From a virus: a DNA stretch of 21,131 nucleotides. The translations under genes were made by a program, and so were the position numbers. Under the pieces are notes generated by a model. That model was not told where the DNA came from. It saw nothing but the letters and a program-made list of their open reading frames with translations, and searched no databases. The stretch covers positions 1 through 21,131 of the IMG/VR virus record IMGVR_UViG_3300029990_000185. One strand, written 5' to 3'. This document shows, in pieces, positions 10,586-12,529 of the stretch; position 1 is the first letter of the stretch; every line of letters begins with the position of its first letter.

Positions 10586-11164
10586 TTATCGGGAGATTCG
10601 GCCACCGGTCCATGCGTCACCATCGAGCATGTTGTAGTTGCCATAATCAAGTTCGTATTCCTGGCATTCCGCCCATGCTGTTGCTTCCTGTTCTTGCAAG
10701 GAGCCTTCAACTTCACCGGCACCGAAGAATCGGATATTGAAACGGCGAGATGCTTTAGCCACGATGTAGGAACGAAAACACTCAGGCATCTCTTGGTATT
10801 CTCGAAGGCGAACAAGAGTCACTGTCACGGGTTGCGTAAACACATCAGACTTTGTGGTCCGGTCGTACACAAAGCCCCCGCGATTCGAATAGGTCCCGGT
10901 GGTTATTTTCAGAAAATCAGACTGATAGTTAATTAGCCCCGAAAAACTATCGGGGACCAGCGCGGCATCCTCTTCGATATTGAAAGCCCATCCTTTGGAC
11001 TGCACTTCGCGATTGACTTGATTGAGTAAACGACGGCAGTTCGCCACATCAACGTTAGGGTCCCCTTCAAGAGAACTAACAGGTGACTCGCCAATTGCCG
11101 CAAGCATGTCATTAACCGCCTGTAGTTCCTCGTCGGACTCAATATTTGATTCAAAGCTTGCCAT
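10586..11164 (-). CDS. 11: Tail tubular protein A / head-tail adaptor (T7 gp11-like)
   Basis: A 192-aa protein (T7 gp11 196 aa) that forms the dodecameric adaptor between portal and nozzle. Conserved blocks: [19 protein letters not shown] (about 16-34), NRxxQSKGWxFNIEED, [37 protein letters not shown], and [19 protein letters not shown] at the C-terminus. The frame is open a further 17 codons upstream to 11215, but that segment is the terminator stem and gives a meaningless peptide. The ATG at 11164-11162 has an ideal AAGGAGGCCCT site just before it and matches the T7 N-terminus, so I use that. It is the first gene after the Tphi-like terminator, so its expression depends on read-through. Confidence 0.96.
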
Positions 11165-11196: not shown

Positions 11197-11237
11197 AAAA
11201 AACCCCTCGCCCCATAGAGAACGGGATGAGGGGTTTT
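11197..11237 (-). terminator. Tphi-like transcription terminator after the capsid gene
   Basis: On the minus strand, AAAACCCCTC (11237-11228) pairs with GAGGGGTTTT (11208-11199) around a partly paired loop (CCC/GGG), and the strand ends in TTTTTTG (11202-11196). This is the same form and place as T7 Tphi between genes 10 and 11, whose stem also carries CCCCTTG...GGGGTTTTTT. It should make capsid mRNA more abundant than tail mRNA. It lies 7 bases past the stop of the 10B frame, so both capsid forms are encoded upstream of it. Confidence 0.92.
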
Positions 11238-11243
11238 AAGTGG

Positions 11244-12529
11244 TTATGGAGCTGGCACAGTCACTGCGCATGTCTTGGTAAAAGAACCATCGACAGTAGT
11301 GCAGGTGATAGTAGAAGTTCCTTGTGCAACGGCCGTAACGACTCCCGCAGAACTCACAGTTGCCACAGCAGGATTGCTGGACGTCCATGTAACGGAGGTA
11401 TTAGTGGCCTCAGCAGGCGCAACGGTAGCGTTCAGCGTCTTAGTGTTTCCGATTTGGAGACTCATAGTTGCTTGGCTAAGTGTCACGCCCGTTACTGAGA
11501 TCAGGCCGCTGTGAAAACCAATGCACCAGCAGCTTCAGGACGCAGACCGCCGTGACCCATTGCGTAGCGACCGATGATTTGGTCAGCTTGGTACTCAGGA
11601 CGACGCGCACGCTCAAGAGCCATGTCACGCAGTTTCACAGTACCCACAGCGGAGCGGTGGTTGAACAGACCCACAACGTTATCCAGTGCAACCTTTACGT
11701 CACCAGCAGCGGTTGCCGGGAAGGCGTGCTTGCGGTTAGTGCCAGCGAGGTCATCACCAGCACCACCAGCGGTCAAGTGTGGTACTTCGATAACTTCGAA
11801 GCCCATAACGTTCTTGATGTTGCCGGTTTCTGGATCGGTCAGAGCTGAGAAGTTTGCAGCGTTTGGCAACAGAGCGGCCAGAATTGCGCTGTAGTTCTCA
11901 GGGGTCGTGTAGAACTTACGGTCAGTCGAAGGTACGTAGGAACGGGTCAACTTGCCGCGAGCAACAGTAAGACCTTTCAGAATCGCCTTACCCATTGCCT
12001 CAGCGTCAGCCTCAAGTGCTGTCTTAGTGCCAATTGGCAGAACGGTGGCAGTACCCAGACCGGCGATGTTTTCGTTAGCAGCGGCTGGCAAGTTGCACAG
12101 CTTCGCCATTTCGGCCAGTACAGCACCGTCAGCGGCAATTGCCAGAGCCTCACCCAGTTGCGCCGAGTATTCAGCACGAACATCATAGTGAACCATTGCG
12201 TCTTCGATGTCGTAAATCAGTACATCGGAAGCCAACAGGCCATCGATCTGAATCACCTTTTCGGAGTGTTTGATTTCACCACGTTTGTCGTCCAGGCTCT
12301 CACCGGCTGCAAGGTAGTAACCAGCAGTACGGCCCATTACTGGGAACGAAGCAGATTTGCCGTTTTGAATGGTGCGAACCATGTGCTTATCCATGGTTAC
12401 AGCCCGACGCATGAAAGCAGTCAGAACTTCACCACCGAAGACTTTCAGGAAGTTCTTCAGTTTGTCGGCATCAGTTTGCCCCTTGCCTTGGTCCTTGCCG
12501 ATTTGTTGACCACCTTGTGCGTTTGCCAT
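11244..12529 (-). CDS. 10B: Minor capsid protein 10B: capsid plus Ig-like domain made by -1 frameshift
   Basis: If ribosomes slip back one base at GGTTTTC (11519-11513), the capsid's ...GALVF continues as [19 protein letters not shown] and on to a TAA at 11246-11244, adding 89 residues for a total of about 428. The extension is a textbook Big_2 bacterial Ig-like fold: [27 protein letters not shown], then the signature [19 protein letters not shown] and [15 protein letters not shown]7 makes 10B (398 aa) by the same -1 shift at the same codon pair, but its extension is not this Ig sequence. The frame's domain boundary (ISVTGVTLS) begins before its only nearby start-like codon (GTG 11486), which favours fusion over a free protein. 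Such domains on capsids are thought to aid weak surface or glycan attachment; that role is inferred here. Confidence 0.82.
11501..12529 (-). CDS. 10A: Major capsid protein (T7 gp10A-like)
   Basis: A 342-aa HK97-fold major head protein (T7 10A 345 aa). Almost every block of T7 10A is visible: N-terminal [17 protein letters not shown] (compare the T7 start MASMTGGQQMG), [110 protein letters not shown] and [26 protein letters not shown]. The zero-frame product ends FTAA and a TGA at 11503-11501. ATG 12529 follows AAGGAGA at 8 bases, behind promoter phi10 and a leader hairpin, and upstream of the Tphi-like terminator. This is the arrangement expected for the most abundant late protein. Confidence 0.98.
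   Translation of the reverse strand: MANAQGGQQIGKDQGKGQTDADKLKNFLKVFGGEVLTAFMRRAVTMDKHMVRTIQNGKSASFPVMGRTAGYYLAAGESLDDKRGEIKHSEKVIQIDGLLASDVLIYDIEDAMVHYDVRAEYSAQLGEALAIAADGAVLAEMAKLCNLPAAANENIAGLGTATVLPIGTKTALEADAEAMGKAILKGLTVARGKLTRSYVPSTDRKFYTTPENYSAILAALLPNAANFSALTDPETGNIKNVMGFEVIEVPHLTAGGAGDDLAGTNRKHAFPATAAGDVKVALDNVVGLFNHRSAVGTVKLRDMALERARRPEYQADQIIGRYAMGHGGLRPEAAGALVFTAA
11513..11519 (-). other. -1 ribosomal frameshift (slippery) site in the capsid gene
   Basis: GGTTTTC lies six codons before the 10A stop, read in zero frame as ...G GTT TTC ACA. A -1 slip over the T run keeps Val-Phe and re-enters as CAC AGC GGC. I recall the T7 slip at the same GTT TTC codon pair after the same [10 protein letters not shown] residues. 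The alignment of frame change, position and downstream open frame is seen directly; slippage efficiency cannot be judged from sequence. Confidence 0.78.

Follow-up and report, generated by a model that had tools for sequence, protein, structure and literature searches.

How does a phage express an Ig-like domain that lies just beyond the stop codon of its major capsid gene, in the −1 frame? The question arises in a 21-kb virus record of IMG/VR (IMGVR_UViG_3300029990_000185), analyzed here over its full 21,131 nt, to which we refer as the window. The window comes from a T7-like phage, with Pseudomonas phages of the Studiervirinae as its closest named relatives. All window features described below lie on the minus strand, where the gene order is portal, scaffold, capsid 10A (12529–11501), and tail tubular genes. 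Gene 10A encodes the 342-aa major capsid protein (positions 11501–12529; Pfam Gp10A-like, E = 1.3e-103; phrog_267, major head protein) and has an AAGGAG Shine-Dalgarno sequence (−9.3 kcal/mol). Past the −1 frame extension of this gene is a Tphi-like intrinsic terminator (AACCCCTC...GAGGGGTT, then a T run; positions 11199–11237; fold −25.7 kcal/mol, z = −5.92); the next gene downstream is gene 11, tail tubular protein A (positions 10586–11164; Pfam Tube, E = 2.6e-51). Pfam and PHROG matches to the capsid and its neighbors, together with the terminator fold, place the locus in a T7-like capsid context, i.e., gene 9, gene 10, terminator, and gene 11. For the scaffold gene (13595–12639), the listed start codon, ATG 13595, has no good Shine-Dalgarno sequence (−1.9 kcal/mol), and translation probably begins at a codon further inside the gene.

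Judged from sequence comparison and structure prediction, a −1 frameshift at G_GTT_TTC very probably yields a capsid-Ig fusion, 10B, beside 10A, with both proteins made from one start.

The end of the capsid gene and its −1 frame

The 3′ end of the capsid gene reads GCA TTG GTT TTC ACA GCG GCC TGA. The initial annotation pointed to GGTTTTC ahead of the capsid stop codon, to a −1 frame that stays open to 11244, and to the use of the same codon pair by T7 in making 10B. Each of these readings holds. The heptamer lies at positions 11513–11519, in the register G_GTT_TTC, with GTT (11518–11516) and TTC (11515–11513) as its codons in the capsid frame. It is of the X_XXY_YYZ type, in frame, and shortly before the zero-frame stop, with 9 nt between its end and the UGA of 10A (positions 11501–11503). 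Among nine major genes checked, G_GTT_TTC occurs in frame only once, at the capsid site. The heptamer and its codon pair match those in the T7 sequence, where the first part of the heptamer is G_GU (PMC5009743). Following a −1 slip, the first codon would be CAC (11513–11511); the frame continues CAC AGC GGC CTG ATC TCA and ends ...VPAP. The extension (positions 11244–11513) thus comprises 89 codons and a TAA stop codon (11246–11244), of which 11244 is the last base. The predicted 10B has 339 + 89 = 428 aa.

The extension encodes one complete Ig-like domain, as initially proposed. This is a Big_2 domain (PF02368; positions 11262–11495), detected by Pfam (E = 2.4e-19; 69.5 bits versus a cut-off of 22.8; profile positions 2–79 of 79) and by an HMM search of the phage's own genome. 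The extension also matches PHROG 215, “structural protein with Ig domain” (1e-29). An AlphaFold model of the domain is a confident beta sandwich of nine strands (pLDDT 92.8). Foldseek aligns the model with 7quz, a Big_2 domain of a Paenibacillus glucanase (E = 1e-9, TM 0.86–0.90), with the Ig domain of lambda gpV (2l04; E = 2.2e-5, TM 0.78), and with phage tail-tube and capsid entries.

From these features, we infer slippage, its rate, the part played by a downstream stem-loop, surface display, and binding. Most ribosomes would halt at the UGA (11503–11501) and produce 10A. A minority would slip back by one base, with tRNA-Val and tRNA-Phe, paired to GTT TTC, re-pairing on GGT TTT; a stem-loop 5 nt downstream probably aids this step. 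The slipped ribosomes would read the −1 frame and produce 10B, in which 10A through ...GALVF is followed by the short linker HSGLIS and the single Big_2 Ig-like domain. Assembled into the capsid together with 10A, 10B would display Ig domains on the capsid surface. Binding to carbohydrates or cell surfaces has been proposed for phage Ig domains generally, and weak binding to sugars or other host cell-surface material is the most likely role of the displayed domains here.

Selection on the extension and other routes to the domain

The four nearest relatives are L097, L098, L099, and Pseudomonas phage vB_PaeM-G11 (L001), with capsids that are 98%, 96%, 90%, and 89% identical to that of the window, respectively. 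The slip heptamer, the stop codon, the −1 extension, and the domain are kept in all four, so that the junction alignment suggested in the initial annotation bears out conservation of both slip site and frame. vB_PaeM-G11 is the nearest named relative; its Ig extension is 86% identical to that of the window, and its record annotates the 10A product only. The GTT TTC (VF) codons are invariant in the window, L097, L098, and L099, while the neighboring Leu, Gly, and Thr codons vary.

In comparisons of the window with the four relatives, dN/dS (Nei-Gojobori counting; the L001 capsid value was left out for a one-residue misalignment) is 0.14–0.22 in the −1 frame and >1 in both other frames. By this measure, purifying selection acts on the −1 frame. 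Some sister capsids have no extension at all, as might be expected if the −1 frame were an unexpressed, decaying relic; given the purifying selection and the intact predicted fold, we regard decay as extremely improbable. Together, the domain, the same arrangement in five genomes, and the codon-level selection exclude a chance origin of the arrangement. Synonymous change per site is 0.19–0.27 by block across extension codons 1–66 (11513–11316) and 0.29–0.68 by block in 10A; this lower synonymous divergence in the extension could reflect RNA constraint or recombination.

The extension could also be reached by stop codon readthrough or by a +1 shift, or the change of frame could be an assembly error. 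The overlap of frames is all that these have in their favor: zero-frame readthrough would end after two residues (SQ*, TAA), the +1 frame stops after 11 residues, and the identical frame relation recurs in five separate records. There is next to no likelihood that any of the three accounts for the extension.

A more serious alternative is that translation starts within the −1 frame, perhaps by re-initiation after the 10A stop codon, and yields the Ig-like domain as a small protein of its own, unfused to the capsid. Two in-frame start codons precede extension residue 40: GTG 11486 and ATG 11465. The GTG (positions 11484–11486) is only 15 nt past the stop codon and would retain nearly the whole domain, all five phages keep the ATG, and comparable free ORFs were called by the annotators of phages PPpW-4 and PSA6. 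However, neither codon has Shine-Dalgarno pairing (+0.6 kcal/mol for GTG 11486 and +0.1 kcal/mol for ATG 11465), in agreement with the initial annotation, which placed the beginning of the domain upstream of any good start codon and saw no ribosome site for it. By comparison, of eight other phage genes with placed starts, seven score −7.4 to −12.9 kcal/mol. Moreover, of the four relatives, three (L097, L099, and L001) have GTA at the site of GTG 11486, a change that is silent in the −1 frame but abolishes the start codon. A free Ig protein from GTG 11486, the alternative named in the initial annotation, is therefore refuted as a conserved start, and we judge the codon to be unused. A start at ATG 11465 would, in the AlphaFold model, remove the first strand of the domain. 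A free start would also leave unexplained why the slip heptamer is kept and why slip sites and extensions are associated across the family (see below). Overall, a separate Ig protein is unlikely, with only a slim chance of being correct.

The frame could instead be changed in the mRNA, by phage RNA polymerase slipping on the T run, rather than by the ribosome. Four T do run together in the heptamer, a short stretch for a polymerase to slip on. tRNA re-pairing fits both the two-codon G_GTT_TTN pattern and the presence of A_AAG in relatives that lack the T run; transcriptional slippage is a very improbable source of the −1 product. Because the candidate starts have no Shine-Dalgarno sequence, the GTG is not conserved, and the readthrough and +1 tails are short, ribosomal frameshifting is the sole remaining route that fits well. 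This supports the view in the initial annotation that frameshifting is the only clear way to make the domain.

A candidate stimulatory stem-loop

A conserved stem-loop that was missed in the initial annotation begins 5 nt 3′ of the heptamer (positions 11406–11507; fold −36.8 kcal/mol, z = −2.76) and is a putative frameshift stimulator. Its helices pair 11507–11504 with 11409–11406, 11498–11493 with 11415–11410, and 11489–11475 with 11429–11416; the apical part spans 11472–11434. The structure, of ~100 nt, forms in the window and in the four relatives, with z = −2.8 to −5.7 versus dinucleotide shuffles, and a consensus structure was found. In the five phages, its folding energy is also below that of nearly all codon-preserving shuffles. 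Folding only 80 nt from the slip site gives an apparently unstructured RNA (z = 0.43), since the stem closes only with about 100 nt.

Covariation across the five sequences, in which most pairs are invariant, is not significant: 111 of 500 shuffles score as high. Folds stronger than the stem-loop also occur within the 10A coding region. For these two reasons, we consider stimulation of the frameshift by this element to be plausible, on thermodynamic grounds, and do not put it higher. An Rfam search returned nothing relevant. A CCCC in the T7 terminator, >200 nt downstream of the slip site, is reported to be involved in T7 frameshifting (PMC5009743). The window terminator is comparable to that of T7, and its own CCCC lies at a distance of about 280 nt.

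Capsid extensions and slip sites in T7-like phages

An Ig-like capsid extension is reported, in a review, to be made by −1 frameshifting in phage T3 (PMC5009743). As in T3 and other Teetrevirus phages, the extension in the window belongs to gene 10, occupies the same position, is a Big_2 Ig-like domain, and would be reached by a −1 frameshift at the capsid stop codon; the likely slip site in Teetrevirus (L010–L012), however, is C_CCA_AAG rather than G_GTT_TTC. With T7, the window shares G_GTT_TTC, the codon pair, the distance to the stop codon, and a terminator after the extension. By contrast, the T7 extension is not Ig-like (PMC5009743) but a short lysine/alanine-rich tail, and T7 has no strong local stem-loop (z = −0.2 to −1.6 with 60–120 nt folded). 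As in the window, the capsid gene of Pseudomonas phages of Pifdecavirus and kin (phiIBB-PF7A, PspYZU08, PPpW-4, and PSA6) has an Ig-like extension in the −1 frame, but their slip site is A_AAG (ACAAAG, GCAAAG, or GAAAAG), located two codons ahead of the stop codon. For phiIBB-PF7A, a −1 frameshift has been proposed, and the predicted product lacked proteomic support (PMC3080317).

On this comparison, the window combines a slip heptamer of the T7 type with a domain of the T3 type, and the mechanism has precedents in both T3 and T7. It is a further example rather than a new mechanism, because the Ig extension of T3 and the heptamer of T7 are published and a product has been predicted for phiIBB-PF7A. 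The interpretation given in the initial annotation stands; the novelty that it implied is lower, its design having been described for T3 (Ig) and T7 (heptamer).

We compared slip sites with extensions in 53 non-redundant relatives, a panel biased toward relatives of the window capsid. A slip site (G_GTT_TTN or A_AAG) precedes the capsid stop codon in 38 of 38 relatives with a recognizable −1 extension and in 2 of 15 without one (Fisher p = 1.2e-10, in a test that ignores shared descent). The two exceptions are L022 and L060, the latter with a truncated extension. In a capsid tree from which the final 12 codons were left out, five or six supported independent sister pairs agree with the association and none show the opposite (sign test p = 0.03–0.06). 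The slip motif is not uniform among Ig-bearing capsids: it is G_GTT_TTC in the window clade, A_AAG in Pifdecavirus and kin, and probably C_CCA_AAG in Teetrevirus.

Several variations were seen among these phages. Pifdecavirus-type relatives L002, L004, L006, L008, L009, L043, L051, L053, and L076 have no GGTTTTC, and all carry A_AAG two codons before the capsid stop codon. In several phages of this type, a GTGA overlaps the capsid stop codon and was taken by annotators as a free start. The −1 extension of phiIBB-PF7A (L003:2508–3041) holds two tandem Big_2 domains.

A group of Pseudomonas T7-like phages (L028:1254–2678, L046, L129 [Lepni01], L130 [IPa-1], L131 [Kompost-2], and L132 [MR1]) has a −1 capsid extension of about 470 aa, laid out as an Ig-like domain, a GDSL/SGNH-esterase-like domain, and a C-terminal part. 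Their slip site is GGTTTTC, GGTTTTT, or A_AAG, and their extension-less sisters mostly have GTC TTC. The L130 extension matches Pfam Lipase_GDSL_2 (2.1e-9). A single-sequence AlphaFold model of the L028 Ig and GDSL extension was uninformative (pLDDT 34), and the assignment for L028 therefore rests on the L130 Pfam match and on motifs. A capsid that bears an enzyme-like domain by frameshifting would be unusual.

A different −1 extension, of 96 aa (phrog_7473; no Pfam match), lies behind the same GTT_TTC in L081–L083, L085, L086, L088–L093, L047, L048, and L056. Most of these phages have a strong stem-loop close downstream, with z of about −5 in many.

A broader reading, to which we give even weight for and against, is that the capsid gene end serves as a cargo port in T7-like phages. 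Unrelated extensions (Ig, Ig plus GDSL-esterase-like, the phrog_7473 domain, and the T7 tail) would be swapped in behind the stop codon, and on each occasion a slip site (G_GTT_TTN or A_AAG), in many cases accompanied by its own stem-loop, would be retained or acquired anew. Selection, and not mere descent, would then maintain decoration by frameshifting, with the window as one case.

The window offers a clean further case of probable capsid decoration through programmed frameshifting. Such capsid fusions escape current annotation, in which only 10A or a free-standing Ig ORF is recorded. Lastly, since extensions and slip sites go together across the family, with two different motifs, sister phages with and without Ig domains could be compared to test why such domains are added out of frame.
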